From an uncultured Clostridia bacterium (lineage in GTDB: Bacteria; Bacillota; Clostridia; Christensenellales; UBA1242): DNA of 45,750 bases. Every line of letters starts with the position of its first letter. Positions within the stretch are counted from its first letter, which is position 1. A model generated the notes under the pieces. The model was not told where the DNA came from. It searched no databases and saw only the letters and a program-made list of their open reading frames with translations. The DNA is taken from positions 1 to 45,750 of the forward strand of contig CAMLSW010000004.1 of NCBI GenBank assembly GCA_946484195.1. Reading direction: 5' to 3'. Below are positions 9,400 through 45,750 of this stretch, in pieces. Made by a program: the position numbers and the translations under genes.

Positions 9400-9400
9400 C

Positions 9401-29987: not shown

Positions 29988-30017
29988 AAAAAACTTAAAA
30001 AATTTTCAAAAAAATAA

Positions 30018-30037
30018 CCACACTTTAATAAGTGTGG
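30018..30037 (-). terminator. Terminator after the zinc-finger gene
   Basis: CCACACTT / AAGTGTGG with a 4-nt loop, followed on the minus strand by TTATTTTTTT. It is 15 nt after the stop of the 30052 gene. Confidence 0.8.
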
Positions 30038-30051
30038 CTAAAAAAGTACTT

Positions 30052-30480
30052 TTATTTCTTGTTTAATTCTTTTAGTAATTCTAATATGTCTTTACTATTA
30101 TTTGTCGGAGCACTCCACCATTGAGAACAGATATGATATTTTTTTCCATTTATATTATAAGGCTCTATATAATATCTATAAACAGATGAAGAATCTACAA
30201 CAACCTCTTTTTTGCAATGTTCTTTATCAATATCTTGACATTCTACCAATAAGGGTAATCTTAAACCTAAAAATTCAAAACTCTCTTTTTTCTTAGTAAG
30301 CTTATCAAGAGAACTTTGAGGGAACGTTCTTAATAAGGGCAATAAAACTTCTTCAACTTGATTTTTGTTTACATCTCTTGTGCCATTGTTATGATTATGC
30401 TGTGATTTACATAGAGAACAAAGATCTTCATCTTCTTTTATATAATTTAATTCACATTGTGGACATTTTTTATATTTCAT
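30052..30480 (-). CDS. Hypothetical protein with N-terminal CxxC zinc finger
   Basis: The 142-aa protein starts at ATG 30480 with GGAG upstream. It has CPQC and CSLC (about residues 6-9 and 22-25), a linker, and an alpha/beta domain with HICSQWW near the C-terminus. It lies outside the defence repeat on the left. HNH-like spacing is not evident. Not recognised; possibly a cargo gene of the same hotspot. Confidence 0.6.
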   Translation of the reverse strand: MKYKKCPQCELNYIKEDEDLCSLCKSQHNHNNGTRDVNKNQVEEVLLPLLRTFPQSSLDKLTKKKESFEFLGLRLPLLVECQDIDKEHCKKEVVVDSSSVYRYYIEPYNINGKKYHICSQWWSAPTNNSKDILELLKELNKK

Positions 30481-30501
30481 AATCACTCCATAATAGTTTA
30501 G

Positions 30502-30537
30502 TTTTTCTTTTATCTCAAAAAGAGAGGCAATAAGTAT
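30502..30537. repeat. 36-bp direct repeat, left copy (defence cassette boundary)
   Basis: Identical over 36 bp to 44302-44337. It ends exactly at the stop codon of res. The centre contains TATCTCAAAAAGAGA, a weak hairpin. The matching copy ends a few bases from the stop of the SLOG gene, so each copy lies at the 3' side of a leftward gene. Confidence 0.9.
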
Positions 30538-33500
30538 TAATTTATGCTTTTCATAACATTGAGTAAATCTTCATAACTTGTTACATCGTGGTATCGAACT
30601 TTACTTGTAGATAGTTCATTAAACAGCTTTCTTGCACATTTTATTTTTGCTTGTTCAATTGGTCTAAGTTCAAGTGATTCCATTGTTCCTTTTGTTTCTG
30701 CGACAAAGTAAATATGCTTTATTCCATACCCATCATTGAATGCAATTGCCCAGTCAGGTGCGTAGTTGCCAACAGGGGTAGGTATTTGGAACGATCTTGG
30801 AAGTTTTGCATAAACACAAACCTCATCAGCTTTGTCTAGATCTTCAGCAAATCTTCTTTCTACTGAATTTTCAGCAGTTCCATCTGTAAACAAATAGTCT
30901 TGAATAGCCTTTTTAGCCCTGAAAGCTTTGTTAAAGTCGGCTTTTGTTTGGTTTGCTGTAAAGATATCAGTGTCGTATGTTCCGTCCGTTACATTGTAGG
31001 TTACATGGTCGATTATCATTGTTGCTTTTTGTTCGTTTATAAGTCTAATTACCTTTGAAATAAATTCTTCAGGATTAAGTTTATACATATAGAATTTTGC
31101 CGGACTTATTCCTTGCAAAATTCTTACAATTGTCTTTCTTGTAAGAGTTGTGCCTGCGACGATTTTACCAATTAAATCGTATTTTGTACTATCTGCTCCT
31201 GCACTAGTTATACTTTCTGTTCTTGTTTTAGTAGCACCGAACGAATCTCCTCGTTTCACTTGGTTTTCGTCCATAACTCTTCTTTGTTCGCCAATTGTTA
31301 CCGTGTATTTCATCTCGGCGACAAATAGTTTGTCATCTATATGAACAATAGACTTTTTGATAAGTTCTTCACTATCAAATTCCACTTTGTAGGTGTATTT
31401 GTGGTTGATATAATTCCATAGTGTTTGGAACTCTTTCTTTGCAAAGTTGTCATTAAGTGCATTGTCAATAATGGTGGTTTGATTGCCATTTTCAATCATA
31501 CCATCAAGTGCTTTCTCATCAAAGATACCCTGTACAAGTTTGTGAATGCTTTCAGTATAAGGTGCAAGTATAGCAGGCATTTCTTTGAATGCACCATTTT
31601 CTTTATCTGCAAAGTAGCTTTCAGTGAGTTTGTTGTCTTTATCTACATAGCCACTAAATCTAAGATAACTTTGAATGTCGGTTGCAAGTTGTGTATCAAC
31701 CTGAATTGTGTTAGTTCCATCGCTGACAAATTTACCCTTAAAGTATTCAACTGTGGCTCTAGTAGGTCTATCAGATAGGTTAGCCTTAATATCCTTTTGA
31801 ATATCTGCAACAAAGTCTTTATAACTGTCAGTAGCAACAACTGTAAGCATATTTATTTTGTGGAAGTTGTTTCCTGTGGTAGCACAATAATGTGCATCAG
31901 CTCTATCTCCAAGCATATTAACAGCAATACGAAGCCCACGACCAACTTCTTGTCGTTTTGCAACAGCAGATTCTCCACCAGGCTTCAATGCACAGATTTG
32001 GAATACATTTGGATTATCCCATCCCTCACGAAGTGCAGAGTGGGAGAATATAAATCTCGTTGGCTCTTCAAAAGATAGCAATCTCTCTTTATTTTTCAAA
32101 ATCAAATCATACGCAGAAATATCGTCCGAACCTGTTTCTTTGTTGTCCTTTGAATCTATCATTCTGCCTGTTTTCTTATCAATAGAGAAGTATCCCTTGT
32201 GAGTATCCTCAACTGCAATATTCTTTAAATATTTAATATATGGGGTTTCAAACAAGGTCAAGTATTCATTCAAGATTTTTACATATTCTTGTTCAAACAT
32301 TCTTGCGTATTCGCCTTTTTCGTCAGGCTGGTCATAATCTCTATACTTTTTAACCTCATCAATAAAGAATAGGGAAAGACACTTTATACCTTTGTTATAA
32401 AGCATTTCTTCTTTTTCAAAGTGAGAACGAATTGTTTCTCTTATCTGCACTCTGCGAATGTCTTTGTCTGAAATATCTCCAATAACTTCGCCAATCTTAA
32501 TCTCTATGTCATTTAAGAATGTAACAGAGTTTGTAAATGGATTAATCTCTTTGATTGTATATCCATTTTTGTATTGCTCCATTTCATTTGAAAGACTAAA
32601 TAAGTTTCTTTCAACACCAAGTATTCTTGTTTCTCGGTTGATTGACTTGTTGTAGTTAATTTCAAATTCAAGCTTTGCCATTGGTGGTTTGTTTTTAGAT
32701 AAAACAATATCTTGAAGATATAAATATCCATTTGTTCCACGCAAGTTTTTTATTTCAAATCCTTTAACTTGAATTTTCTTAACAAGTTTTTTGTTGTATG
32801 CATCTAAAGCATCTAGTGAATAGACTAGGTTGTGATGTTTTCTATGGGTTGCAGAGAAGTTCATATTGAATAGTGGGTTAAACTTTTTAAGTGAGGTTTG
32901 GGTTGCCTCTCCACCAAGTTTTTGTGGCTCGTCAATGATAAGTATTGGTCTTGTCTTTGCCACAACATCAATAGGTCTACGAGATTGGAATTCGTCAAGC
33001 ACCATATCAATTCTTCGAGCATCTGCACCACGAGCATTGAAAGCCTGTGCATTGATTATCATTACTTGAATATCACTAGAAGAGGCAAAACTATCAAGTT
33101 CAGAAAGCCTTTTGCTATTGTAAATAAAATATCTTGCTTTCTTGCCATACTGATCCATAAAGTGATCTTCCATCATTTCAAACGACTTTTTGACGCCCTC
33201 ACGAATAGCAATGCTTGGAACAACAATGATAAATTTACTCCAACCATATCTTTGATTGAGTTCAAAAATTGTCTTTATGTAAACATAGGTTTTACCAGTG
33301 CCTGTTTCCATTTCAATATCAAGCGAGCACCGACCAAGCCCTCGAACGAGTTCTTCAGACTCTTTGTAGTTGTTATCTTGCTGAATTTTCTTGATGTTTG
33401 CAAAAATATCTGCATCCTCAATCACGATTTTGGCATTCTCAAAGCCATCGTCATTTATCTCAAATGCACCTGTGTCTATCATGTCAATCTGAGCCTCAAC

Positions 33501-33629
33501 CTTTTTACGCCTAATACCCAAATCTCTTGTATATCTAATCATATCAAAATAAGGTTGTCCTTTAAACACCTTGCAAATGTTATTTACAGCATCTTGCTGA
33601 TATGGTTGTGTCTTAAATTTGAATTTCAT
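30537..33629 (-). CDS. res: Type III restriction enzyme, Res subunit
   Basis: The 1030-aa protein has a DEAD-like helicase core with METGTGKTYV (about residue 107), DEPQ (about 235) and the SAT motif in MNFSATHRKHH. The late helicase motifs include AKRQEVGRGLRI, and a C-terminal PD-(D/E)XK endonuclease has DWAI...AETKG (about 965-985). Length and order match complete type III Res subunits, which translocate or switch on ATP and cut when two unmodified sites are met. TAGGAG precedes the start, 21 nt after the DUF2971 gene. It is the last gene of the defence operon. Confidence 0.95.
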   Translation of the reverse strand: MKFKFKTQPYQQDAVNNICKVFKGQPYFDMIRYTRDLGIRRKKVEAQIDMIDTGAFEINDDGFENAKIVIEDADIFANIKKIQQDNNYKESEELVRGLGRCSLDIEMETGTGKTYVYIKTIFELNQRYGWSKFIIVVPSIAIREGVKKSFEMMEDHFMDQYGKKARYFIYNSKRLSELDSFASSSDIQVMIINAQAFNARGADARRIDMVLDEFQSRRPIDVVAKTRPILIIDEPQKLGGEATQTSLKKFNPLFNMNFSATHRKHHNLVYSLDALDAYNKKLVKKIQVKGFEIKNLRGTNGYLYLQDIVLSKNKPPMAKLEFEINYNKSINRETRILGVERNLFSLSNEMEQYKNGYTIKEINPFTNSVTFLNDIEIKIGEVIGDISDKDIRRVQIRETIRSHFEKEEMLYNKGIKCLSLFFIDEVKKYRDYDQPDEKGEYARMFEQEYVKILNEYLTLFETPYIKYLKNIAVEDTHKGYFSIDKKTGRMIDSKDNKETGSDDISAYDLILKNKERLLSFEEPTRFIFSHSALREGWDNPNVFQICALKPGGESAVAKRQEVGRGLRIAVNMLGDRADAHYCATTGNNFHKINMLTVVATDSYKDFVADIQKDIKANLSDRPTRATVEYFKGKFVSDGTNTIQVDTQLATDIQSYLRFSGYVDKDNKLTESYFADKENGAFKEMPAILAPYTESIHKLVQGIFDEKALDGMIENGNQTTIIDNALNDNFAKKEFQTLWNYINHKYTYKVEFDSEELIKKSIVHIDDKLFVAEMKYTVTIGEQRRVMDENQVKRGDSFGATKTRTESITSAGADSTKYDLIGKIVAGTTLTRKTIVRILQGISPAKFYMYKLNPEEFISKVIRLINEQKATMIIDHVTYNVTDGTYDTDIFTANQTKADFNKAFRAKKAIQDYLFTDGTAENSVERRFAEDLDKADEVCVYAKLPRSFQIPTPVGNYAPDWAIAFNDGYGIKHIYFVAETKGTMESLELRPIEQAKIKCARKLFNELSTSKVRYHDVTSYEDLLNVMKSIN

Positions 33630-33650
33630 TATTTTCTCCTAAATTAGCCT

Positions 33651-34715
33651 TTAAAACGGAATGTCTGGAATATTATCATTGTTATCATGACCTAAACCCA
33701 TATTTTTCATATCAATAAGCAGGTTATGATCGTTTATTTCATCATCTTCTTCAAATACAATTGCTCCATTTGAATCTTTTAATATACAATATTTTATATC
33801 TAACTTTTTAGCTAAATTTTCTACTGCTGGTTTAATTGTGTAGTTATTTATTCTTTTATGAATGAATAATCTTCTTAAATATGGAAAATACAATAAACAA
33901 CCATTTTGCAATATTTTATAATCTCCTATAGACCTGAGATCTTTTTCTGTTAGGACAAGTCTTATTTCTTTTTCATATTTCCATTGTTCATGTTTTTTAC
34001 AGAGACTTCTTTTAATAGCACTGATTATTTTTTTGTTTTCAGTTAGTTTATCAATAGGTGTATTAAAAAGTGTATCAGTATCTAATTTAATAAAATTTCT
34101 AGAATATGTTACATAATGCATATGTTTAAGTATTTTATATCCTCTCTTATCTATTCGTTCTTTGCCCAAGTCGTATTTAATATTGCCAAAATTGAATTCA
34201 GCACATAAACCTTTGTAATTATTTGCATAGTGGCTCCACATCACCATATTTCCTGTGGGACGATTTTTTGTAAAACAAGCAATATAAAATGAATTTCTAA
34301 TTTCATTAATTTTATCTCTATATTTTTGTAACAGGTCTTTAGACTCTTTTAACCATTTTTCATAATTCATTTTTTTGATAATGTCTTGTTCTAAACCAGT
34401 TATTTTCTCAATTTCATTTACATTGAATAATTTTGACATTGTATTAAAAGATTCTGCATATCTAATAATAGAAATGTCACCAGATTTAACATCAACAATA
34501 ATATTTTCAGGAGCATCAATTTCTTTTAATTTTTTTGCCATATAAAGACAAATAAATTTTTTTTCATCCATTGCAACAAAACAATCAAATGGATCGTTAA
34601 AAGCTGATGGCTTTGATAAAAATATTTTTTTATTATTTAATGCATCAAAGTTATATTCACTTTCGTTATACATTTTATATAAAGAATCTAAAAAAGTGAT
34701 TTCTTTATCCGTCAT
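33651..34715 (-). CDS. DUF2971 protein between mod and res
   Basis: The 354-aa protein shows the DUF2971 pattern: FLSKPSAFNDPFDCF near residue 35, NMVMWSHYANNYKGLCAEF in the middle, and a late KEIRLVL stretch. The start overlaps the mod stop by one base (TAATG), with AAGGAAGG upstream. DUF2971 proteins have no assigned chemistry that I know of; the conserved His, Asp and Arg suggest an enzyme. Being locked between mod and res implies a role in this system. It is only distantly similar to the second copy at 36693. Confidence 0.85.
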   Translation of the reverse strand: MTDKEITFLDSLYKMYNESEYNFDALNNKKIFLSKPSAFNDPFDCFVAMDEKKFICLYMAKKLKEIDAPENIIVDVKSGDISIIRYAESFNTMSKLFNVNEIEKITGLEQDIIKKMNYEKWLKESKDLLQKYRDKINEIRNSFYIACFTKNRPTGNMVMWSHYANNYKGLCAEFNFGNIKYDLGKERIDKRGYKILKHMHYVTYSRNFIKLDTDTLFNTPIDKLTENKKIISAIKRSLCKKHEQWKYEKEIRLVLTEKDLRSIGDYKILQNGCLLYFPYLRRLFIHKRINNYTIKPAVENLAKKLDIKYCILKDSNGAIVFEEDDEINDHNLLIDMKNMGLGHDNNDNIPDIPF

Positions 34716-36700
34716 TATAATACCTTCCTTGTAGTTGATGGAGAATAGGTTTCAAAGATTTGGTCAAAGTTAACTGCAACGCTGTCTGAAGACATTGAAC
34801 TGTCACGGAATACTGCGTATAGTGGTTGCATTTTAGCAATTTCTGTTACAACTTCGTCTGTTAAGTTTTCATCAAAACAGCATACTAGGTTACCATCATT
34901 CACATTGAATACTTTTTTACCTTTTATATCAAGTGTTTTAATTTCGCTTGAAAGTATAACGCCCATATCAAGCATAACTTGGAATAACAAATCTTCAGGC
35001 GACCTATCTTCTTTAATATTACTTACCAAATCAAGAAGATTGCTCTGCTCAGTGTCGCTAGGGCAATAATAAACATCTTTCATATTGCTTGAATCAAGTT
35101 TTAATACTCGGAAACCGATATCAGGTAGTTTCTTTTCTTCTAGATAAATAGAATCTAAACGATTATTTTCTAAATTGTCTACTGCTATTTCTATGGCTTT
35201 TTTAAATTCTTCAGATTTAGGATCATGTTTACCTTTTTCTTGAAATAAAATTTTCCCAGACATAATATCATCTCTAATTTTCTTACCTGCACGGCGAATA
35301 CGTTCTTTCCCTATTTCACAAATGTTTTTATAACCTGCTTTATAAGCCTCGCTCTTTTCATCACAATTTTCAGGAAGCTGAACCATGATGAACTTTCTAT
35401 TGCCACCATCTTCAGCATTGAGTTGCATAACAGCGTGAGCAGTTGTTGCAGAGCCAGAGAAGAAATCTAAAATAACTGACTTTTTATTTTTATCATAACT
35501 TAGTATTTTTTTAATAAATGATATTGGTTTTGCATAATCGAACATTCTTTCATCAAAAAGATCTATCATTTCTTTTGTAGATACTTGATTCATATATTGA
35601 TTTTCACAAACATCAAGAGAGTTAAGAAGTAAATTTTGACTTCTTAAATCCTTTTTATATGCTTTATAAATAAATCCTCTTTCAGTTTCTCTACATTCTT
35701 TTTTAAAAACTATAGCTTTTTCTTTAAGTAAATTATTAAATTTTTCTTTTGTGAAAGCCCAACCTCTACCTTTTGGAGGCAAATCAATTTTTCCATTATA
35801 TGGATTTACAATTTCAAAATCATTTTTTGAACCACTCATTGTAGGATCTGATGTTTTCCAATCACCATTTGGATCATTATCAGGATTGCTGTAAACATCA
35901 AAATTTTTCTCGTCGCCACATAAATCAAAACTATTATAATTTTTAGCATAAATTAAACAATATTCATGTTGTGTATTATAATTTTTTGCCATTGCTCTTT
36001 GAGAAACAGTCTTTCTAATGTGTGTTCCAACGAAATTGTGTTCGCCGAAAATTTCATTGCAAACTTTTTTGAGATTTTCAACTTCATTATCATCAATGCT
36101 AATAAAAATCACACCATCCTCAGTTAACAAATCTCTTGCAAGTTTTAATCTTGGGTACATCATTGAAAGCCAGTCAGAGTGGAAACGCCCATTGCTTTCA
36201 AGATTTTGCACCATACGGTTGCCATCTTCATCATAACTTTTACTATTTTGAAGATACTCATCAGCAGAACTAGCGAAATCATCGTTATAGACAAAATCAC
36301 TACCAGTGTTATATGGTGGGTCAATATAAATCATTTTGATTTTATTTAGGTATGTTTCTCTGAGAAGTTTTAAAACATCAAGGTTATCTCCCTCAATGTA
36401 AAGGTTTTTTGTGTTGTCAAAATCAACACTTTCCTCTCGGCAAGGGCGAAGAGTTGCATTTATTGGAGAATTTGCAGTTAAAATTGCTTGCTTTTTGCCT
36501 GCCCAGTTAAGAGTGTATCTTTCGTCAGTTCCGTCAACCACAACTTTGCTGAGTTCCTGTTTAAGCAAATCGAAATCAACAAGTTTAGTAACTTGTCCAT
36601 TTTCATCTTTGCCCTCAGTAACGCAGTTAGGGAAAGCTAACGCTATTTTCTCAACATTTTCATCTACCAAATTTTCACTCTGCATTTTCAATTTATCCAT
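34715..36700 (-). CDS. mod: Type III DNA methyltransferase, Mod subunit
   Basis: The 661-aa protein is a beta-class adenine-N6 methyltransferase: catalytic DPPYNTGSDF (about residue 130) before AdoMet-binding LDFFSGSATTAHA (about 413). The stretch between them (about 210-400) is the usual target-recognition region. The C-terminal 150 residues fit the Res-contact domain. AAAGGAG precedes the start. Mod alone modifies one strand of the site and also directs Res; the recognition sequence cannot be read from the protein. Confidence 0.95.
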   Translation of the reverse strand: MDKLKMQSENLVDENVEKIALAFPNCVTEGKDENGQVTKLVDFDLLKQELSKVVVDGTDERYTLNWAGKKQAILTANSPINATLRPCREESVDFDNTKNLYIEGDNLDVLKLLRETYLNKIKMIYIDPPYNTGSDFVYNDDFASSADEYLQNSKSYDEDGNRMVQNLESNGRFHSDWLSMMYPRLKLARDLLTEDGVIFISIDDNEVENLKKVCNEIFGEHNFVGTHIRKTVSQRAMAKNYNTQHEYCLIYAKNYNSFDLCGDEKNFDVYSNPDNDPNGDWKTSDPTMSGSKNDFEIVNPYNGKIDLPPKGRGWAFTKEKFNNLLKEKAIVFKKECRETERGFIYKAYKKDLRSQNLLLNSLDVCENQYMNQVSTKEMIDLFDERMFDYAKPISFIKKILSYDKNKKSVILDFFSGSATTAHAVMQLNAEDGGNRKFIMVQLPENCDEKSEAYKAGYKNICEIGKERIRRAGKKIRDDIMSGKILFQEKGKHDPKSEEFKKAIEIAVDNLENNRLDSIYLEEKKLPDIGFRVLKLDSSNMKDVYYCPSDTEQSNLLDLVSNIKEDRSPEDLLFQVMLDMGVILSSEIKTLDIKGKKVFNVNDGNLVCCFDENLTDEVVTEIAKMQPLYAVFRDSSMSSDSVAVNFDQIFETYSPSTTRKVL

Positions 36701-37643
36701 TATTTTTCTCCTTTAAATCAATATCAATTATTTTTAGATTAAAATTTTTATCAACATCAACTTTTGAAAACTTTATTAAATCTTTTTCATATATTTTATA
36801 ATAAAACAATCTCATTTGTTTCTCAGATTTAAATTTGTTTTTATATTTAGAACTATTACAATATTCTTTAAACTTATTAAATTTTGTTTCATTTAAATAT
36901 TGACATATATGTTTTAAGTCTTCTTTATCTTTTTCTGTGCATTTTAAACCACAAATTATTCTACTTATTTCTAAATCTAAATCTTTTAAATTATATAATT
37001 TGCCATTACTTTTTAGTTTTTTATTAACTTTTATCAACCGATATTCTTTCTCGTAGTCCCAAATTTTTGATTTTAAACAAAACAAAATTGATGTTCTTAA
37101 TGCATTTATTTTTGCGATTGATTTATCCTCACTATAATTCTTCAAAAATAAATTATTTTTTGTTTTAACAAATTCCTCAGCAATATCTTTAAAATCAATT
37201 TTTCTATCAATATATATCACAGGGTAAGTAATAGCATGCATGCACTTAAATTCGATACAGAACCCTTTATGTGAATTTGCATAATGTGACCACATCAACG
37301 GATTATCTGGAGTATCAGTCATACATAATAATAATCTTGTTTCAAAAATCTCTTTATAATAATTTAAAGTTTTTTCATCACTTCCTCCTATATCTGCTAA
37401 TTCAAACTCAAATGGATCATTGAGTAACTCTTTATTAGATAACCAAAATTGATTTTTACTTATTTGATTTAGCCTTTTATTTCTAGATTTTTTATTGCTT
37501 GGTAATGAAAAATATTTATATAGATACTCTTTCCGATTTAAGAAAAAATACTTGTTTGCTTCTTGGCATTTTTTATCAGGACATAAATTCTTATCATTTA
37601 AAATACTATAATAGTCATTCCAGTTAAATTCTTTTTTTTCCAT
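36693..37643 (-). CDS. Second DUF2971 protein, upstream of mod
   Basis: A roughly 316-aa protein with FWLSNKELLNDPFEFE, LLLCMTDTPDNPLMWSHYA and KGFCIEF, the DUF2971 signature, plus YEKEYRL later. I place the start at ATG 37643, which has GAGGAAAAG; the in-frame ATG at 37685 abuts the stop of a 32-aa ORF and has no ribosome site. It overlaps mod by 8 nt. It is more AT-rich and Lys/Asn-rich than mod and diverges strongly from the DUF2971 gene downstream, so the two did not arise by a recent duplication. Confidence 0.8.
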   Translation of the reverse strand: MEKKEFNWNDYYSILNDKNLCPDKKCQEANKYFFLNRKEYLYKYFSLPSNKKSRNKRLNQISKNQFWLSNKELLNDPFEFELADIGGSDEKTLNYYKEIFETRLLLCMTDTPDNPLMWSHYANSHKGFCIEFKCMHAITYPVIYIDRKIDFKDIAEEFVKTKNNLFLKNYSEDKSIAKINALRTSILFCLKSKIWDYEKEYRLIKVNKKLKSNGKLYNLKDLDLEISRIICGLKCTEKDKEDLKHICQYLNETKFNKFKEYCNSSKYKNKFKSEKQMRLFYYKIYEKDLIKFSKVDVDKNFNLKIIDIDLKEKNNG

Positions 37644-37685
37644 TGTGCTTTTCCTCAAAATCTCATACAACTTGGAATTTTTCAT

Positions 37686-37784
37686 TTAAATATATTTATT
37701 ACAATTCCATTCTTTCATCATTTCATCACATCTCCAACATTTGCAAGCTTTTTTCATCTGTTTTATTTCATCATTAAGTTTCAT
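37686..37784 (-). CDS. 32-aa Cys-rich ORF, displaced tail of the DUF4391 gene
   Basis: It starts MKLNDEIKQMKK, the same residues as near the end of the DUF4391 protein (PNIKMKLNDEIKQMKKE), and continues into CKCWRC and WNC. Its first 36 bases belong to the 42-bp duplicated segment around RhuM. It may be the original 3' end of the DUF4391 gene, separated by the RhuM insertion. Its own translation is uncertain; its ATG overlaps the RhuM stop. Confidence 0.45.
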   Translation of the reverse strand: MKLNDEIKQMKKACKCWRCDEMMKEWNCNKYI

Positions 37785-37790
37785 TTTTAT
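37749..37790. repeat. 42-bp imperfect direct repeat, left copy, flanking RhuM
   Basis: It matches 38838-38879 with three mismatches. Both copies encode the end of a KLNDEIKQMKK stretch. The pair encloses rhuM plus the present last codons of the DUF4391 gene. Confidence 0.8.
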
Positions 37791-38814
37791 CCTTTTTCAC
37801 TTGCAGTAGTAGTTTATCAAAATCACTTTGGTATAGTCTGTCTTGCACAATTCTATATTTCTCAAATTCACTTTCTGCTTTTGCTTTTGCAATTTCGGCA
37901 CTAATTTTACCGTTGTCTTGCAAGACATCTCTATCCCAAAGTTTTAAAAATCCATTTAATCTTTGTTCCCAGTCTTCCATTGTCATAGGAATATTTCTCT
38001 CTGCTTGAGCTTCTGCCATATCTAAATATGCTGATACAATTCTACCAAGTTGTGATAGTTCTTGTTCTGTTAGATAATTTTTAGCAACAACTACATCATA
38101 TTTGTGAATTTTAGAATTTGGAGAGCCGTCCCAAGAGGTTAAGCCCATATTTTCTTTTTCAGCGTCTGCACGATTATAAATTAATTCGGCAGCAGTTTGA
38201 CCATGCACAGAGTAGTGGAGTTTATTTTGTACAGCAGAGAAAAATCTTTGAGTGATTTTTGAAGTTGGATCATAGTCTATTGCAGTAGCATAAATATCTG
38301 TGATTTTTTGATAAAACAATCTTTCGGACAAACGAATTTCTCGAATTCTTTCTAATTGTTTTTCAAAATAATCTCTTGTTAAAATTGAGCCACCTTTTTT
38401 TAGCCTCTCATCATCCATTGCCCAGCCCTGAATAGTATAATCTTTAACAATTGAGTTTGCCCATTTTCTAAACTGAACTGCACGCTCATTGTTGACTTTA
38501 AAACCAACAGCAATAATCATTTGAAGATTGTAATGTTTTGTACTATAAGATTTTCCGTCACTTGCAGTTATTCGGAAATTCCTAATAACTGAATCTTCAG
38601 TTAATTCTTTGTCGTCAAAAATCTTTTTGATATGTTCGTTTATAGTGGGAACACTTACTCCATAAAGTTCTGCCATCATTTTTTGAGTGAGCCAAATATT
38701 TTCGTCTTGATAGCGAACTTCAATAGTCTTCTCGTCATCTCCAACTGACGCAATATAAGTTAAATACTCAGCTGTACTAGAACGAATTGTGATTTCTTGC
38801 TTATTTTTTTTCAT
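37774..38814 (-). CDS. rhuM: RhuM family protein
   Basis: The 346-aa protein has the full RhuM layout: N-terminal IRYQDENIWLTQKMMAELY-type segment with DNA-binding helices (SVPTINEHIKKIF), NFRITASDGKSYSTKHYNL, and the C-terminal TAAELIYNRADAEKENMGL block. RhuM proteins are found in pathogenicity islands and inside type I and other restriction operons, with unknown function; the N-terminus suggests DNA binding. GGAGGAAT precedes the start, which overlaps the DUF4391 stop by one base. It appears to be a guest in this operon (flanking duplication). Confidence 0.9.
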   Translation of the reverse strand: MKKNKQEITIRSSTAEYLTYIASVGDDEKTIEVRYQDENIWLTQKMMAELYGVSVPTINEHIKKIFDDKELTEDSVIRNFRITASDGKSYSTKHYNLQMIIAVGFKVNNERAVQFRKWANSIVKDYTIQGWAMDDERLKKGGSILTRDYFEKQLERIREIRLSERLFYQKITDIYATAIDYDPTSKITQRFFSAVQNKLHYSVHGQTAAELIYNRADAEKENMGLTSWDGSPNSKIHKYDVVVAKNYLTEQELSQLGRIVSAYLDMAEAQAERNIPMTMEDWEQRLNGFLKLWDRDVLQDNGKISAEIAKAKAESEFEKYRIVQDRLYQSDFDKLLLQVKKDKNET

Positions 38815-39449
38815 TATTCCTCCATATCCTGCAGTTCTTTTTTCATCTGCTTTATCTCGTCATTAAGTTTCATTTTTATGTTTGGTTGTTTCTCTGCATT
38901 CATTATTTTTGTTTGCTTTTCAATTTCACTTTTTTGTTTTTTGATTGCACTCATTCTATCAACATATTGTTTAAAATCCTCATCAATTCTGAAAGGGTAT
39001 AAGGTAAGTTTTGCGATCATTTGCTTGTAGATATTTTCTAGTTTAACACTGCTTGGCATTTCGTCAAGGGTTTCTTCTTGCCAATCGCTTTCAAATGTTT
39101 TTAGGATTTTAATTTTTTCATCATCAATGATTTTAATTGCAATTATGTATTTAACTCTATCATTATACTTTAATGTTAAAAGTGTTTGAAAATTTATGCT
39201 TTTATTAAGTGCTTCAATAAATTTTTCAGGAACTTTATTTGAGTTAAGTTCTATATCAAACACATAAATTTCTTTCACATTGTCACTTGATTCCATATTT
39301 GTTCTATCAGGAGATAAGACATTAGATAATGTGACCTTTGTGACATTTCCTGCGTCTGCTTTAACTACTTTATCTGCCTTTATGGTCCTGAATAGTTCAA
39401 GCATCTTAAATTGCATATTGACTTGAGTTTTTTCGCTAAATTTAAACAT
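38814..39449 (-). CDS. DUF4391 protein
   Basis: The 211-aa protein has an alpha/beta body with IYVFDIELNS and VKYIIAIKIIDDE strands and a long C-terminal coiled coil (about residues 160-211). I recognise the pattern of DUF4391, a family usually found beside SNF2 helicase and methyltransferase genes. The start is 10 nt after the helicase stop. It probably bridges the helicase and the Mod/Res proteins; no catalytic motif is visible. Its last codons may be new, created when RhuM entered. Confidence 0.75.
   Translation of the reverse strand: MFKFSEKTQVNMQFKMLELFRTIKADKVVKADAGNVTKVTLSNVLSPDRTNMESSDNVKEIYVFDIELNSNKVPEKFIEALNKSINFQTLLTLKYNDRVKYIIAIKIIDDEKIKILKTFESDWQEETLDEMPSSVKLENIYKQMIAKLTLYPFRIDEDFKQYVDRMSAIKKQKSEIEKQTKIMNAEKQPNIKMKLNDEIKQMKKELQDMEE
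38838..38879. repeat. 42-bp imperfect direct repeat, right copy, inside the DUF4391 gene
   Basis: Partner of 37749-37790 (39 of 42 bases identical), lying in the coiled-coil codons near the DUF4391 C-terminus. Confidence 0.8.
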
Positions 39450-39458
39450 TCATTCTCC

Positions 39459-42400
39459 TCATTTGACTACCACAAAGGCTATAAGCTCAAAGTCGTCAAG
39501 TCCTTTTATTTTTGTTCCACTAAGCACCATACTACCTTGCTTAAAAAGTGCGTTTATATCACTTTGCTCTTTAACCTCGATTATGCTTTCTATGGCTTTC
39601 TCTAATAGTTTACTATATTTTGACATATCAAGTCCATCATTTGTTTCTTCGTTAAAGATACTGCAAACATTGTAAAGTGGCTCTTTTCTTCCTTTGCAGG
39701 CAACACGAATTGAGTCAAGGATTTCCTTAACTTCAAGATGATTATTAACTATTTCTCCCTTTTCGTCAACATAAACTAGGTAGTAAGGGTGCAAGCGATT
39801 TTGTCTGTTTATATTCACATTGTTGTTTTGGTTTTTAAGAATGTAGATGACGCCTGGCACAATGCCACGAGAAGCATCTTTTTCTATGACGCAGTGCATT
39901 CCTTTTGGAACTCGCCTAGGCTCTCCATAAGTTTTGATAAACTCAGTTGCATCCATTCTAAATTCGTTTAATCCAAGATCGCTTATAGATATACCACTAT
40001 TTGTATCTTCAAGGTCAATATTTTCGCCCTCACGAAGCTTTTTGATTTGAACTTCACGGTAATCGTCCATTTGGTCATCAGGATTTAAAATATTGTCATC
40101 AGCAGTTGCTGTTTGATCGACAATTGTCATTCTGCTTTTAACTCTATCAGTAAGGTTAATATACTCATTTAATGGAAGTGGTGGCCAAAAATTCACTAAT
40201 TGTATTACTTTGTTTTTGCTACCAATTCTATCAATACGACCAAATCTCTGCACAATTCTAACTGGATTCCAGTGTATATCATAATTTATACACATATCGC
40301 AGTCTTGCAAGTTTTGTCCCTCTGAAATACAGTCGGTTGCAATCAAAACATCAATGTCTTTGAAACAATCGTCAAACTCGTGTTTATCAATTTTCCCACT
40401 CCAATTGAGTTTAGGATCGTTATAACTTTCAATTTGTCTATGCATCCAACTAAATACTTGATCTCTATTTTTACTTATTGGACTAAACATTGTAAGCAAG
40501 GTGTTGGTTCTCTTTGGACAATGTTTCAGGGATACTTTGTTCGCTTGTCCCTCGATCATCGCTGATTCTATGCCATAAGTATCTTTTAACCATTTATGCA
40601 AGTTTTCATAAAGATAATTTGCAGTATCAGCAAACGCAGAGAAGATGAGGAACTTTCTATTTCCTGCATTTATAGGATTTTTTATTTTTATATCAATGAT
40701 CTCCTTTAAGGTTTGAAGCTTTAAGTCATATTCAGGTGTGATTTTGCCAAGTTCATTTATAAGATACTCAAGTATTTCGACATCGTGTTCCATTGCTTTT
40801 TGCCAAGATAACCTATCAATATCAGCATATTCGATGTGAATTTCTTTACCTTTGTCGGTTTGCACTAGGTTTAGACTGCCATCTTCATCTTGGTCAAACA
40901 TTTCATAGTTAAACACCTTTTTAGTTGCATAGGCATCAGGTCGCATTTGTCCTGCATTGTAGTAGGATAATCTTTTAAGTTCTGCTCGGTTTAGGTCTAG
41001 CATTCCAAGCATAGTAAGTCTGAAAGCCTCAACACTTGATTCAAGTCTTTTTAGCAAGTTTACAGTCATTATACGCTTAATGCCAGAAGTTCTACCACTG
41101 CGAGTTAGTCCACTGTGTTTGATTTCAACATCGTATTTTCTTTCATATTTATCTTTTTGACTATCAAGCACGAAGTCAAATAGTCCATAGACTGCCATAC
41201 TTAATGATTTTATTGATTGATAAATCTCTTTATATTGTGGCACATCTTTCCTTTTGGTAAGTTCAGGAGAACAAGAGACTGGTGGAAGTCTATCAGGGAA
41301 CTTGCCAATATCGTTCATATTGTAATACTTGGCAATATTCTTACGACTTCTTGCAATAGTAACACTATCAAGTAGAATTTTAAAATCTATGCTTAACGCA
41401 TCGATTAAATCTTTGTTTTTTCGTTCATTTGGTGGTCGTTTGCTCCAATCATTGAATACTGCTTGAGCTTGTCTAAAAATTGTTGCGATGTTGCTTTTTG
41501 TGTCCAAGCTATTCTCAAATGCATCGTAATCTTGGCTATATGCAATTGCAAGTTGGTTTTTAAGGTCGTTATACCTATTGTTTACAGGAGTAGCAGAAAG
41601 CATCAAAACCTTTGTTTTGACACCTGCTTTAATTACATGATTGATAAGGAAGTCATATCTTGTTTCTTTGTCTTTAACAGGGTTATTGTTTCTAAAATTA
41701 TGGCTTTCATCAATCACAACTAGGTCATAGTTTCCCCAGTTAACAAGTTTTAAATCTCTGCCATTGTGTGCTGTTCCAACACGACCTAAGTCAGTGTGAT
41801 ATAGCACCTCATATCTAATTCTATCCTCATAGAAAATATTTGTGGTATCGTTACTGCTACCACAGTATTGTGTCCAGTTATCACTTAGTCTTTTTGGACA
41901 TAAAACTAATATGCTCTTATTTCTTAAAGAATAATAGGCAATAACAGCAAGTGCAGTAAAGGTTTTACCAAGACCAACACTGTCTGCCAGAATACAGCCA
42001 TTGTGTTTTTCTAGTTTGTTTATTATGCTAATAACTCCATCCTTTTGGAAGTCATATAGCATATTCCAAATTTTTGTGTCTTTAAAGCCTGTTGCCTCGT
42101 TAGGCATATTGTCTTCACTAATATCATCAAGAAATTCGCTAAAAATGTTATATAAAATTATGTAATAGATAAACTCAGGACTATTTTCTTGATAGGCACT
42201 GCTTATCATCTCCACCACATTGTCAGTTATTTCTTCAACTTTCGATTTGTCGTTCCAAACCTCGTCAAACATTGAAAATAGGAATTTGCTTTGTTCTGCA
42301 AAGTCCGTTTTACTTATTGCTGTAAATATACTATTTCCTTGCTGATAACCTAAGTCTGTAGTTGTAAAACCGTTGACTGGATTGTATGTAACCGAAGAAC

Positions 42401-42815
42401 CATCTTGATGATCAATACCAATATAGTTTGGAATAGAAGAGTTTGTTATGTTACTTTTAAATTTAACTTTTTGTCTTACCCAGTTGGCACATTCTTTTGC
42501 GATGGCTTTAAGTGTCATCTCATTCCTGAGTTTAATTTCAAACTCGCTACCATAAAGGCTGTTTTCTCGGTTTTGTTTTGGGATATAAAATTCTCGTTTT
42601 TCCTTTTTAACTCCCTCTGCGATTGTATCCTTTGTGAATGTTGGAGAAGTAAACAAAAATTTAAGTTCTTCAATTTGGCTTAGTTCTTCCTTTAATTCTT
42701 TAAATGCATACATTGAAAAACAAGAAGAGGCTATTCTTACCTTTGAGCCTTTTCTTAACTCACTTTTTAAATCATCTCCAAGCAGTTTTGTTCTATTGTC
42801 TATATTTTCAAACAT
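39459..42815 (-). CDS. SNF2-type helicase with PLD-like N-terminus
   Basis: The 1118-aa protein opens with a PLD-like segment (KVRIASSCFSMYAFKEL, about 24-40) that lacks a visible HKD motif. The helicase core has ADSVGLGKTFTA (about 278), DESHNFRN (about 368), LSATPVNNRY, and a second half with TDCISEGQNL and RFGRIDRIGS (about 860), as in SNF2/RapA-like translocases. A C-terminal 200-residue extension is unassigned. It is the first gene of the defence operon, with AAAGGA and its own extended -10 promoter 35 nt upstream. Confidence 0.9.
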   Translation of the reverse strand: MFENIDNRTKLLGDDLKSELRKGSKVRIASSCFSMYAFKELKEELSQIEELKFLFTSPTFTKDTIAEGVKKEKREFYIPKQNRENSLYGSEFEIKLRNEMTLKAIAKECANWVRQKVKFKSNITNSSIPNYIGIDHQDGSSVTYNPVNGFTTTDLGYQQGNSIFTAISKTDFAEQSKFLFSMFDEVWNDKSKVEEITDNVVEMISSAYQENSPEFIYYIILYNIFSEFLDDISEDNMPNEATGFKDTKIWNMLYDFQKDGVISIINKLEKHNGCILADSVGLGKTFTALAVIAYYSLRNKSILVLCPKRLSDNWTQYCGSSNDTTNIFYEDRIRYEVLYHTDLGRVGTAHNGRDLKLVNWGNYDLVVIDESHNFRNNNPVKDKETRYDFLINHVIKAGVKTKVLMLSATPVNNRYNDLKNQLAIAYSQDYDAFENSLDTKSNIATIFRQAQAVFNDWSKRPPNERKNKDLIDALSIDFKILLDSVTIARSRKNIAKYYNMNDIGKFPDRLPPVSCSPELTKRKDVPQYKEIYQSIKSLSMAVYGLFDFVLDSQKDKYERKYDVEIKHSGLTRSGRTSGIKRIMTVNLLKRLESSVEAFRLTMLGMLDLNRAELKRLSYYNAGQMRPDAYATKKVFNYEMFDQDEDGSLNLVQTDKGKEIHIEYADIDRLSWQKAMEHDVEILEYLINELGKITPEYDLKLQTLKEIIDIKIKNPINAGNRKFLIFSAFADTANYLYENLHKWLKDTYGIESAMIEGQANKVSLKHCPKRTNTLLTMFSPISKNRDQVFSWMHRQIESYNDPKLNWSGKIDKHEFDDCFKDIDVLIATDCISEGQNLQDCDMCINYDIHWNPVRIVQRFGRIDRIGSKNKVIQLVNFWPPLPLNEYINLTDRVKSRMTIVDQTATADDNILNPDDQMDDYREVQIKKLREGENIDLEDTNSGISISDLGLNEFRMDATEFIKTYGEPRRVPKGMHCVIEKDASRGIVPGVIYILKNQNNNVNINRQNRLHPYYLVYVDEKGEIVNNHLEVKEILDSIRVACKGRKEPLYNVCSIFNEETNDGLDMSKYSKLLEKAIESIIEVKEQSDINALFKQGSMVLSGTKIKGLDDFELIAFVVVK

Positions 42816-42849
42816 TCTTTTGTCCTTTGCTGGCTAATATCTTAAGTTG

Positions 42850-42858
42850 ATTATAGCA
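42850..42858 (-). promoter_or_regulatory. Extended -10 promoter of the defence operon
   Basis: On the minus strand the sequence is ATATGCTATAAT (TG then TATAAT at 42855-42850). The leader is short (about 28 nt). The same ATATGCTATAAT occurs before the WYL gene, so both units could be co-regulated. Confidence 0.65.
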
Positions 42859-42918
42859 TATTTATCGCTTTTTTGTGGTGTTTTTCGCAAAATTTAATTA
42901 AAATATTATATATTTTTA

Positions 42919-43164
42919 TTAAAAATCTTCATCATCCTCATCATCGAAACTATTAAATTCGTCAAATGATGTTTTGTTATTTCCTTTTTTATTTTCTCCC
43001 CAAAAGGATTGACTAATATCTTGTTTGCTTTGTGCCTGCCAGTCACAAGTGCAATCTTCTAATAACTCTCCACAGGACTCACAATGAGTTTCCCAATTAA
43101 AATCATGTTGTTTCTTCTTATCCTTTGGTTTTGAAAATCCAAATAAAAAATCTAAAAATCCCAT
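42919..43164 (-). CDS. Small zinc-ribbon protein of the defence region
   Basis: The 81-aa protein has CESC and CTC (about residues 29-40) forming a possible zinc ribbon, a hydrophobic N-terminus (MGFLDFLFGF) and a strongly acidic C-terminus (DDEDDEDF). TAGGAG precedes it, 9 nt after the WYL gene. Not recognised. Confidence 0.6.
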   Translation of the reverse strand: MGFLDFLFGFSKPKDKKKQHDFNWETHCESCGELLEDCTCDWQAQSKQDISQSFWGENKKGNNKTSFDEFNSFDDEDDEDF

Positions 43165-43173
43165 ATTTTACTC

Positions 43174-44160
43174 CTAATATTTATTTAAAACTTTTTCAAG
43201 CATAGCTTTTATTTTTTCTCTTGTTTCTTGTGGACTTACAATCTCTACATGCTCGCCATACTGCATAGACCAGTAGATAAGTGCAAGTTCGTTTACTTTC
43301 AAGTTTACGAATATTTCTTCATTTTCTTTTTTAATTTTTATATTCTCGCCATACCAATCTATAATATCTCCAATAACTTTCGGGCTATCTAACTTTAATG
43401 TTGCATCAACTGAATTTCCATGTGTCATATAAATGTGTTCGTTTATATAGTTGTCAAGTTTAAAGTTTTGTTGATTAGGTAGTGACTTTAAAGGCTTTAT
43501 ATCTTCATCTAGTATTTTTAAATCTGATATGCACTCAATTTTGTAATTAGCGAGATCATCATATTTGTCGTAGTTGCAAACTAAATAATATTTTCCATTA
43601 TTGTTTACTAGAAAGTAGGGATTCATTATAAATCTATGTCCCTGCATTCTTGGTAGAAATTTCTTTGTTATGTCGTATTCGTTATATTGAAATGAAACCT
43701 TTTTACCTTTCTCAATTGTTTCATCAAGCATCTCAATGTTTTTAAACAACTGCGTATTTCTCATTCTGCTGATTTCTTCAACTTTGTAAATATGCTTATA
43801 TTTTCTTTTTTCAAAAGTACTACAGTTCTTAATTATTTTTTGAATTAATTCCTTAGCATCCTGCGGGGGAATAGTTTTAGAAGAAAAAATGGCGTCAACT
43901 AGAAACATCACTTCAGATTTGTCAAAATCTCGTGATGCCAAGTAACAGCCATATTTACCTTTCTTTACTATTTTATATCCGTACTCAGTAAGTGTTTCTA
44001 TGTTTCTAGCAATTGATTTTATATTTGGAGAAACTCCATATATAATATCTAACTTTGTGATTATATCTGAATAGGTTAACAAATGATTTTCGTCAGTAAA
44101 ATCTTTCAGTATGTCTAAAACATACAGAAGCACAATTTTTTTATCACTTTCAGACGCCAA
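43174..44160 (-). CDS. WYL-domain transcriptional regulator
   Basis: A roughly 328-aa protein with an N-terminal winged helix (about 15-70), a WYL domain (NPYFLVNNNGKYYLVCNYD, about 180-200) and a C-terminal WCX-type extension. The GTG at 44175 lies on the GGAGG itself, so TTG 44160, 8 nt after that site, is the better start. WYL regulators often control defence islands and may sense nucleotide or DNA ligands; here it is placed upstream of, and read towards, the defence operon. Confidence 0.85.
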   Translation of the reverse strand: MASESDKKIVLLYVLDILKDFTDENHLLTYSDIITKLDIIYGVSPNIKSIARNIETLTEYGYKIVKKGKYGCYLASRDFDKSEVMFLVDAIFSSKTIPPQDAKELIQKIIKNCSTFEKRKYKHIYKVEEISRMRNTQLFKNIEMLDETIEKGKKVSFQYNEYDITKKFLPRMQGHRFIMNPYFLVNNNGKYYLVCNYDKYDDLANYKIECISDLKILDEDIKPLKSLPNQQNFKLDNYINEHIYMTHGNSVDATLKLDSPKVIGDIIDWYGENIKIKKENEEIFVNLKVNELALIYWSMQYGEHVEIVSPQETREKIKAMLEKVLNKY

Positions 44161-44161
44161 C

Positions 44162-44233
44162 TTATTTACCTCCACTGATTAAACTTTTAAAAAAGTAGTA
44201 AATGAATAGGATTGGGCACAATATCCACCACAT
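44162..44233 (-). CDS. 23-aa hydrophobic leader peptide before the WYL gene
   Basis: ATG at 44233 has a strong AAAGGAGAG site. The product is MWWILCPILFIYYFF followed by KSLISGGK. Its final codons (SGGK) overlap the WYL ribosome site, so its translation could control WYL start-up. It also resembles a small membrane peptide of type I toxin size. The extended -10 promoter lies just upstream. Confidence 0.5.
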   Translation of the reverse strand: MWWILCPILFIYYFFKSLISGGK

Positions 44234-44256
44234 AATCTCTCCTTTTTTACGCTTTT

Positions 44257-44294
44257 ATTATAGCATATTTCAAATCCAAAAAAACGGATTTTAA
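44257..44294 (-). promoter_or_regulatory. Promoter of the WYL/leader unit
   Basis: The minus-strand sequence has AAAATCCG-TTTTTTT, then 30 nt from its first base TGC-TATAAT. It also holds the inverted repeat AAATCC/GGATTT. It shares upstream element and spacing with the LexA-like promoter at 29946-29987. Confidence 0.6.
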
Positions 44295-44301
44295 TAAACT
44301 T

Positions 44302-44337
44302 TTTTTCTTTTATCTCAAAAAGAGAGGCAATAAGTAT
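44302..44337. repeat. 36-bp direct repeat, right copy (defence cassette boundary)
   Basis: Perfect match to 30502-30537 in the same orientation, 13,800 bp apart. Recombination between the two would remove the whole defence cassette and leave one copy. Confidence 0.9.
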
Positions 44338-44342
44338 GTTTA

Positions 44343-44870
44343 TTAAAGTTTTTGCAGGTCAATAATCTCTATATCTTTACCGACTTTCTTTGCATACTGA
44401 ATTGTGTTCCAAGTTCCACCTGATTGCTCTCCATTCCAAAATGCTAGCAGTTTATCACAATTATCAACCATATATTCATTTCGTTTTTGCATACAGTCAA
44501 ATGAGTATTTGTCGCTTACTAGGGTAATCTTATCTGCGCTCAAAAGAATTTTTTGATATCTAGCCTTATCTTCGGCATTCCATTTTTTATCTTGGTCCGT
44601 GCAAGGTAATGCCATTTCTAACTCAATCTTTGTTTTATTTAATTTATTTAATAAAATCTTTGTATCTATTACAGCTCTTGCAAAGTCAAGGTCTACACCA
44701 ATTGCACCACCTGAAATAAAATAATCATATCCATTTGTGGCATATTGCATTACGGTAGATTGCATTAAAGAAGTATATTCCACAAACTTATCATCATTTA
44801 CGTTGCCATATTTCATTACTTTATTTAGCCCCTTAGGTCTATGTCCTGTAACAGCGATTTTCCTATGCAT
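44343..44870 (-). CDS. SLOG-family protein (YpsA/DUF1273-like)
   Basis: The 175-aa protein begins with IAVTGHRPKGL and has ISGGAIGVDLDFARAV and SGGTWNTIQYAKK, the nucleotide-binding pattern of the SLOG superfamily (YpsA, DprA-related). Such proteins are thought to bind or process nucleotide-derived signals and occur in immunity neighbourhoods. TTGGAGGT precedes the start. It is divergent from the XRE repressor, with which it shares an intergenic control region. Confidence 0.8.
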   Translation of the reverse strand: MHRKIAVTGHRPKGLNKVMKYGNVNDDKFVEYTSLMQSTVMQYATNGYDYFISGGAIGVDLDFARAVIDTKILLNKLNKTKIELEMALPCTDQDKKWNAEDKARYQKILLSADKITLVSDKYSFDCMQKRNEYMVDNCDKLLAFWNGEQSGGTWNTIQYAKKVGKDIEIIDLQKL

Positions 44871-44902
44871 ATTGTTACCTCCAATGTAACATTATAGTCT
44901 AA

Positions 44903-44963
44903 CTCGCTTTCAAAAATCAACTTATTTGAAATAAATATAGTATATCTCACTTTCAAAATTAAC
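44903..44963. promoter_or_regulatory. Paired repeats between the SLOG and XRE genes, probable operators
   Basis: CTCGCTTTCAAAAATCAAC (44903-44921) and CTCACTTTCAAAATTAAC (44946-44963) are direct, one difference in length. They lie in the divergent promoter region of the XRE repressor gene, as expected for its binding sites. Confidence 0.5.
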
Positions 44964-45007
44964 AAATGATGTCAAATTTAAAATAAACTATGATTGGAGA
45001 GTTAATT

Positions 45008-45445
45008 ATGTATTCAGTCAAAGAAAATTTGGAAGAACTTATGTCCAATCATAACTTAACATTGACTCAATTATCGGCAGAACTTGGTATTCCATACAAG
45101 ACTATCTCTAATTACACTAATGGCAAATATCTGCCTAATTTGAACACGGCTATTAAAATCGCAAACTATTTTCATTGTAGTATCAATTATCTTATTGGAT
45201 TATCCGATAGTGAGGAATATGGCAATTACTCTGAAGTGGATAATTTATTTTTATCTAGATATGAAGAACTTCTCAAAACAACAAAAGTCACTCATTATAG
45301 GGTGACTAAGGATCTTGGTTTGAACATAAACATATCTCGCAAATGGCGAGCAGGCACAACTCCATCTCTAGCAGTATTAACAAAACTTGCAAACTATTTT
45401 GGTGTTACTATTGATTACTTAATTGGCAGGAATAATTTAGGTTAA
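45008..45445 (+). CDS. XRE-type repressor with two helix-turn-helix domains
   Basis: The 145-aa protein has two tandem XRE domains: LTLTQLSAELGIPYKTIS near residue 18 and VTHYRVTKDLGLNINIS near 93, each followed by a matching ANYF...I.YLIG phrase, so it arose by internal duplication. ATG 45008 is chosen because TTGGAGAG precedes it; the ATG at 44990 lies before that site. It is the only plus-strand gene of the ICE right end and is likely to control lysogeny-like maintenance of the ICE. Confidence 0.85.
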   Translation: MYSVKENLEELMSNHNLTLTQLSAELGIPYKTISNYTNGKYLPNLNTAIKIANYFHCSINYLIGLSDSEEYGNYSEVDNLFLSRYEELLKTTKVTHYRVTKDLGLNINISRKWRAGTTPSLAVLTKLANYFGVTIDYLIGRNNLG

Positions 45446-45494
45446 TTATTTAGATTTTCGTATATTTTGTACAATTCTTTTTCGCTCGAACTAG

Positions 45495-45523
45495 TTGACA
45501 TCAGTATTATATCCGTTTATAAT
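45495..45523 (+). promoter_or_regulatory. Perfect consensus promoter facing out of the ICE
   Basis: TTGACA (45495-45500), 17-bp spacer, TATAAT (45518-45523), an exact sigma-A consensus. It points towards attR and the host. A hairpin (TTTTTGAT / ATCAAAAA, 45531-45552) lies at the expected start of the RNA. No ORF on this strand follows in the window. Confidence 0.75.
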
Positions 45524-45553
45524 AGTATTGTTTTTGATTGATATATCAAAAAT

Positions 45554-45580
45554 TGGCACATAGGCACAGGAATAGGCACA
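45554..45580. promoter_or_regulatory. Right arm-type integrase binding sites
   Basis: The 27 bp are identical to 6685-6711 and contain two TAGGCACA units and a GGCACA unit. Their presence at both ICE ends supports an arm-site role for the tyrosine integrase. The rest of 45446-45690 holds no gene. Confidence 0.7.
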
Positions 45581-45745: not shown

Positions 45746-45750
45746 CTAAA

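Follow-up and report, generated by a model that had tools for sequence, protein, structure and literature searches.

A candidate four-gene branch of type III restriction systems with an SNF2-type translocase, a DUF4391 protein and variable cargo

Type III restriction systems are known as two-gene systems, and their enzymes slide on DNA. A 45,750-nucleotide (nt) stretch from an uncultured Clostridia bacterium (contig CAMLSW010000004.1 of assembly GCA_946484195.1, referred to here as the window) raises the question of why a type III methyltransferase gene, mod, and helicase-endonuclease gene, res, share an operon with five further genes. A preliminary description had read the operon as seven consecutive leftward genes, SNF2-DUF4391-RhuM-DUF2971-Mod-DUF2971-Res, and this reading is borne out by the open reading frame (ORF) calls together with Pfam and PADLOC. 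Comparison of related loci at the sequence level points to four conserved core genes (SNF2, DUF4391, Mod and Res) in a fixed order, with variable cargo in two slots.

The comparison covers 87 loci: the window, six plasmid loci from the best SNF2 hits, and the best 80 of at least 568 genome stretches that encode a relative of the window SNF2. Because they are the best of that number, the 80 genome loci lean to close relatives. Among plasmids, the SNF2 matches 466 records (E ≤ 1e-5), 98 of them with at least 80% length coverage. The order SNF2, then Mod, then Res is kept in 76 of the 87 loci, called complete below, although several of these have a Mod or Res that is truncated at the edge of a contig or plainly split (e.g. 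L006, L013, L048). DUF4391 is found by phmmer in 72 of the complete loci, and the remaining four contain at the same position an ORF from one shared cluster that is probably a diverged DUF4391. In eight of the 11 incomplete loci the contig stops no more than 4.7 kb from SNF2; DUF4391 is already present in four of the eight, and Mod as well in three of those four. The 68 complete loci with a named phylum span 14 phyla, metagenome labels included.

SNF2 and DUF4391 are spaced by -20 to +30 nt in 57 of 72 loci, and cargo separates them in only three of 76. Their protein distances are correlated with an r of 0.91 (73 loci). The correlation is 0.84 for SNF2-Res (64 loci), 0.81 for DUF4391-Res (57), 0.73 for Mod-Res (62), 0.64 for SNF2-Mod (74) and 0.62 for DUF4391-Mod (67), and none of 1000 permutations reached any of the six values. 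The SNF2-Mod value is lower because the recognition domain of Mod is variable.

A second sample consisted of 291 genomes of the window's class, 22 of which have an SNF2 match at E ≤ 1e-30. In 15 genomes the match is close to full length and scores at least 1320 bits, those of G056 and G189 having an internal stop; the other seven genomes hold SNF2 fragments or distant relatives. All 15 genomes with a near-full-length SNF2 contain this Res, on the same contig within about 15 kb of SNF2 in 13 cases; in G016 and G056 the contig breaks inside the operon. The 12 class loci that were fetched, which are all the linked ones besides the window, have DUF4391, Mod and Res in order, with Mod split in two. 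Seen from the side of Res, 16 class genomes score at least 890 bits: SNF2 is linked in 11 and on another contig in three (G016, G056, G015), and the remaining two are G215, contig-cut and without SNF2, and G006, also without SNF2. Six genomes have a Res of 740-845 bits, of which two are linked to SNF2 (G222, G249), two lie at contig starts (G144, G020), one is fragmented and without SNF2 (G190), and one has another SNF2 type (G286). This SNF2 is present in none of the 11 class genomes whose Res scores below 590 bits. Likewise, none of 26 plasmid rows of distant Res (204-239 bits, H89-H114) is in the SNF2 rows among the matches listed. The earlier proposal that the SNF2-DUF4391 pair belongs to the Mod-Res operon is thus upheld, since the pair is anything but rare beside mod-res in both samples.

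Mod and Res have the features of type III enzymes. Mod is a beta-type N6-adenine methyltransferase in which DPPY is kept in 74 of 74 sequences, F414 in 73 and G416 in all 74. Res is a superfamily 2 helicase with a C-terminal nuclease; residues Gly-110, Gly-112, Lys-113 and Thr-114 are kept in 64 of 64 sequences, and Asp-959, Glu-978 and Lys-980 (PD..ExK) in 63 of 64. We take these positions in Mod and Res to be the DPPY, F-x-G, Walker A and PD-(D/E)XK motifs. A point of comparison is EcoP15I, a Mod2Res1 complex that binds its recognition site, then hydrolyses ATP and slides until it meets a second complex, whereupon it cuts; in the available part of that source, type III cleavage requires two inverted sites and ATP (PMC4490356). 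The locus resembles EcoP1I and EcoP15I in its whole-length type III profile matches for Mod and Res, in the position of Mod before Res, and in the kept catalytic motifs. It differs in that SNF2 and DUF4391 are near-constant ahead of Mod-Res.

The motor motifs of SNF2 are near-invariant across 85 sequences. The protein matches the PADLOC profile C3a139 'HKD+Snf2' over its whole length (1.8e-107), but lacks the HKD motif that this name implies. The preliminary description had proposed a PLD-like N terminus; the profile agrees, whereas the alignment of 85 sequences contains no conserved HxK(x)4D motif. A loose HxK(x3-5)D is found in the first 260 residues of three sequences, in one variable stretch and in no conserved column, and is absent from the other 82, so that an HKD nuclease identity was rejected. 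Since the Res motifs are kept and the HKD motif is absent from SNF2, Res is the sole recognisable nuclease of the core. After C3a139, the top PADLOC matches of SNF2 are the DrmD, BrxHI, ZacC and HmaA helicases. An identity as DISARM DrmD was also rejected, as the curated cut-offs were missed (134.1 bits against 610, and 84.3 against 950). Among proteins of solved structure, those most similar to SNF2 in sequence are chromatin remodellers and RapA, which strip or move bound proteins. The AlphaFold model of DUF4391 (predicted local distance difference test score 96.7) consists of an alpha/beta domain and a long C-terminal helical hairpin, for which structure comparison found no solved counterpart; DUF4391 may serve as an adaptor.

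BREX-related Type-2 systems combine an HKD+Swi2/Snf2 helicase with an N6 methyltransferase and DUF3780 (PMC12839542, seen in part). The window likewise places an N6 methyltransferase next to an SNF2-type helicase that has an HKD-like part, but it differs in that it has no DUF3780 match and contains a type III Res. DUF4391 goes unmentioned in that article's main text. A second SNF2 type of 869-870 residues precedes Mod and Res in L134 (3326-11803), a genome of the window's genus, and in L149 (~5100-15307), where the two gaps hold RhuM and an ORF that looks Fic-like by eye. The two helicases are 32-33% identical to each other and can be aligned with the window SNF2 only in the motor stretches. 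If they are counted, the coupling of an SNF2 protein to Mod-Res would have arisen twice. A distant 1065-residue SNF2 relative in class genome G166 (L135) stands beside a 1238-residue ORF; the 18 kb fetched contain neither Mod nor Res, and the protein is probably part of another system.

The remaining genes of the operon behave differently. Cargo was counted in the 76 complete loci as inserted same-strand ORFs of at least 140 residues. Slot 1, between DUF4391 and Mod, is occupied in 19 loci and slot 2, between Mod and Res, in 30; either is occupied in 36, and 40 loci have no such ORF in any gap. Gaps above 420 nt are commoner than these inserts (28 and 35 loci). On the SNF2 FastTree tree the slot state changes at least 16 times for slot 1 and at least 24 times for slot 2, both being raw counts with no shuffled labels for comparison. 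By family, there are six changes for six RhuM loci, four for four Fic, three for three DUF2971 and seven for nine Schlafen. Leaving the window aside, there are 78 slot inserts, and the family tallies cover 62 of them; the other 16 comprise short ORFs, four that resemble DUF4391, and one of 152 residues located between SNF2 and DUF4391. The 62 include Schlafen-AlbA_2 (10), RhuM (5), Fic (5), UvrD-like (3), AAA_21 with DUF4276 (HEC-01; 2), BRO-N (2) and DUF2971 (2), and single cases include SIR2 with HerA (L051), HEC-07, YhcG and PDC-M59A. RhuM is present in the slots of six complete loci, and cargo in five of the 12 class loci. Slot 1 of the class locus L139 (7684-11407) contains four genes, and in one of them a TIR-like stretch, YDVFISHAWEDKEDF, can be seen by eye. 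RhuM and the two DUF2971 proteins thus behave as interchangeable cargo.

Embedding of this kind has precedents. A 2024 preprint by Payne reportedly describes 'guilt by embedding' together with the PDC and HEC families. Anticodon nucleases such as PrrC reside inside type I operons. In enteropathogenic E. coli, DarTG2 is found within a type I system (PMC12255303), and the available parts of that article and of PMC12988326 treat the embedding of defence genes and the PDC and HEC families. PrrC and DarTG2 inside type I operons are the nearest precedents for the cargo. Like embedded defence genes, RhuM corresponds to PDC-S05 and DUF2971 to PDC-S31, and other cargo to PDC-S02, PDC-S13, PDC-M59A, HEC-01 and HEC-07; the genes here differ in being carried by a type III-like core of four genes in which two slots are preferred. 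The literature search returned nothing that pairs type III restriction with RhuM, and nothing on PDC-S31, whereas PDC-S05 turned up in two papers and DUF4391 in one.

DUF2971 is found in three of the 87 loci plus one viral contig, so that besides the window it is present in L081, L008 and the viral contig L111. The viral contig, L111, has the operon SNF2-DUF4391-DUF2971-Mod-ORF-Res. There are 36 DUF2971 matches in the 291 class genomes, and only the two of the window are within such a system. Residues Asn-40, Asp-41, Trp-160, Tyr-163, Glu-248 and Glu-250 are invariant in 41 sequences, with Glu-250 on a strand. The predicted structure of DUF2971-b suggests an ADP-ribosyltransferase-like fold, and DUF2971 could be a little-studied kind of toxin. 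DarTG2, itself an ADP-ribosyltransferase toxin in a restriction operon, may by this model be a structural cousin. It differs in that the carrier here is type III-like, no macrodomain (DarG-like) match is present among the ten proteins scanned, and DUF2971 has no sequence relation to the one DarT compared. In L132 (8904-11375) a lone Mod-like methyltransferase has a DUF2971 gene 12 nt behind it and no Res nearby; the two possibly form a methyltransferase-effector pair.

The reading that we prefer, with a probability of about one half, is that the locus is a type III system of one deep branch, that the SNF2 translocase and DUF4391 belong to it, and that the operon carries other defence genes. 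Mod would recognise a short asymmetric site and methylate it, and unmethylated sites would license cutting by Res, as in EcoP15I. SNF2-DUF4391, having no recognisable nuclease, may load at or near Mod-Res and add active translocation on duplex DNA where EcoP15I slides. Such translocation might serve long-range communication between sites or the clearing of bound proteins, and would improve restriction without being strictly required. RhuM and the two DUF2971 proteins would be passengers expressed together with the core genes and would most likely form a second line of growth-arresting or abortive effectors, perhaps ADP-ribosyltransferases, for cases where restriction is overwhelmed or blocked.

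Several observations weigh against this reading. The unit is not fixed everywhere: in L042 the gene immediately after SNF2 is on the opposite strand, the locus L052 is degenerate, and in L075 SNF2-DUF4391 is present with no Mod-Res within 10 kb. The distance correlations indicate co-inheritance rather than contact, since jointly transferred genes correlate without touching. Same-clade Mod-Res occurs without SNF2 in class genome G006. Further cases came from five plasmid loci opened on account of Res or a broken SNF2. Two small Gram-positive plasmids carry same-clade Mod-Res with no SNF2 annotated. On a Listeria plasmid SNF2 is reduced to its C-terminal part beside a Tn3-family transposase, while a 185-residue ORF, Mod and Res are intact. 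The pair may therefore be dispensable or act separately. As to the cargo, 14 of 20 representatives match a PADLOC family (E ≤ 1e-5), some weakly, and six match none; this is in favour of the reading, but is a raw count with no background rate. For DUF2971, no link to ADP-ribosyltransferases was obtained by PDB profile search, by Foldseek at E ≤ 0.001, or by hhalign, where the control was weak (three usable Tpt1 sequences and one DarT).

Of the other plasmids opened, two from proteobacteria have all four core genes, even at 33% Res identity, and a sixth, again from Listeria, has an SNF2 fragment adjoining an IS6 transposase and no Mod-Res. SNF2-DUF4391 therefore seems to need Mod-Res more than vice versa: Mod-Res stands alone on two plasmids, yet the larger set is present in 76 of 87 loci, which were chosen by SNF2. 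This bears on the rival that survives best, which we consider rather less probable, though far from negligible: Mod would mark self DNA for two arms, one being Res and the other SNF2-DUF4391, which would work on its own and block phage DNA without cleaving it, like the SNF2 proteins of DISARM or Hma. It would explain why the pair acts as a closely spaced, co-varying unit that cargo seldom splits, why Mod-Res can stand alone, and why DrmD, BrxHI, ZacC and HmaA are the next-best matches of SNF2. However, an SNF2 without Mod-Res is rare (three of 87 loci, with eight more contig-cut), and SNF2 distances track Res better than Mod, although the recognition domain of Mod lowers the latter value.

A bolder form of the preferred reading is unlikely as a whole. 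It would make the locus a widespread four-gene form of type III system, in which a nuclease-less SNF2 and DUF4391 drive or extend Mod-Res and two slots carry effectors, with DUF2971 as a new ADP-ribosyltransferase toxin family that is silenced by the restriction complex and freed when phage proteins block it. Still less probable is a role of SNF2-DUF4391 as a regulator or safety device, for example in stripping Mod-Res from self DNA or replication forks, and not as a restriction motor. The lack of a recognisable nuclease, the kinship with chromatin remodellers and RapA, and the apparent possibility of restriction without the pair on two plasmids are all compatible with it, but loss of such a device should be costly, and Mod-Res without an intact SNF2 persists on plasmids.

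The preliminary description had gone further and taken the seven genes for one machine, with the DUF2971 proteins and RhuM as subunits of a translocase-restriction complex; despite overlaps of 8 nt (DUF2971-a) and 1 nt (DUF2971-b) with Mod, the three other systems with DUF2971 and the arrangement in L132, this is highly improbable, as DUF2971 is as rare beside mod-res as the counts above indicate, changes on the tree once for every occurrence, and more than half of the complete loci have no insert at all. What stands of that larger machine around Mod-Res is the SNF2-DUF4391 pair, whereas the two DUF2971 proteins do not hold as parts of it.

The component parts, and the embedding of defence genes in restriction operons, are already known. 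In the literature searched, which did not cover preprints, neither a standing type III variant with this four-gene core nor the preference for two slots nor a fold for DUF2971 was found, and the core is not described in the available parts of PMC8102008, PMC10853773, PMC4490356, PMC2292703, PMC12839542, PMC12255303, PMC13092281 and PMC12988326. If the preferred reading holds, a second motor and its partner are near-constant in a large type III branch that extends over the 14 named phyla, plasmids, an integrative element and a viral contig. The role of an extra translocase in a sliding restriction enzyme could be tested in E. coli, where a compact copy of the four-gene core is mostly plasmid-borne: near matches of the core of L001 (11992-21020; E. 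coli plasmid NZ_CP046008.1, of IncFIB type) occur in 10 of 5426 complete E. coli genomes, nine at 80% coverage or more, and 10 of the 11 places are on plasmids. The L001 plasmid also encodes thymidylate synthase, DNA polymerase III alpha and a 5'-3' exonuclease, and looks phage-plasmid-like. The contents of the two cargo slots can be taken as candidate defence genes, and the predicted fold suggests a biochemical activity for DUF2971, a family that the full-text search found in a single paper.

Table 1. Genes of the operon and its upstream neighbours in the window; ORF starts are mechanical calls.
Feature	Position	Strand	Remarks
SNF2-type translocase, core gene 1	39459..42815	-	1118 aa; profile searches
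DUF4391 protein, core gene 2	38814..39449	-	211 aa; PF14335 1.8e-26
RhuM (PADLOC PDC-S05), cargo slot 1	37774..38814	-	346 aa; PF13310 2.9e-110, PDC-S05 1e-151
DUF2971-a (PADLOC PDC-S31), cargo slot 1	36693..37685	-	330 aa; PF11185 8.6e-9, PDC-S31 7.3e-29
Mod, type III adenine methyltransferase, core gene 3	34715..36700	-	661 aa; MTase_III 1.4e-228, whole length
DUF2971-b (PADLOC PDC-S31), cargo slot 2	33651..34715	-	354 aa; predicted ADP-ribosyltransferase-like fold
Res, type III helicase-endonuclease, core gene 4	30537..33629	-	1030 aa; PADLOC REase_III 2e-290, PF19778 2e-31
WYL-WCX regulator	43174..44175	-	333 aa; PF13280 and PF25583; possible local regulator
ORF between WYL gene and SNF2	42919..43164	-	81 aa; no family

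All seven operon proteins are assigned by Pfam, and all except DUF4391 by PADLOC. From SNF2 to Res the genes are spaced by +9, -1, +88, -8, -1 and +21 nt. The overlaps and short gaps described earlier are therefore present, and the gap after rhuM is 88 nt rather than the 90-130 nt first given. An extended -10 element, TATGCTATAAT, can be spotted by eye near 42850, where a promoter had been placed; it is absent from the promoter scan list, and promoter-like sites in 30000-45750 are at chance frequency (78 against 78.3 in shuffled sequence). The WYL gene is present upstream as described. It is found in two of 47 scanned neighbours including the window, two genes upstream in L086, and beside SNF2 in four of 40 plasmid rows among the matches listed, and is thus recurrent but no constant part of the system. 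The 81-residue ORF, used as a phmmer query, matches one of the 87 loci, the window itself. A YpsA/SLOG-family protein is encoded upstream of the WYL gene, at 44343-44870.

The host genome comprises 1.34 Mb in 88 contigs and is ~80% complete. In the window, a 41-bp direct repeat at 206-246 and 45705-45745 includes the 3' half of a tRNA-Ile gene, and its left copy falls within a serine recombinase ORF (186-1886). A 27-bp repeat at 6685-6711 and 45554-45580 adjoins a tyrosine integrase (6755-8029). Conjugation genes encode a VirB4-like protein (14207-16828), a type IV coupling protein (23798-25978) and a MobL relaxase (25975-27195). The two repeats appear to flank an integrative conjugative element with the operon as its load. 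Near the left end of the element, a PDDEXK_4 family protein is encoded on the plus strand at 3458-4603.

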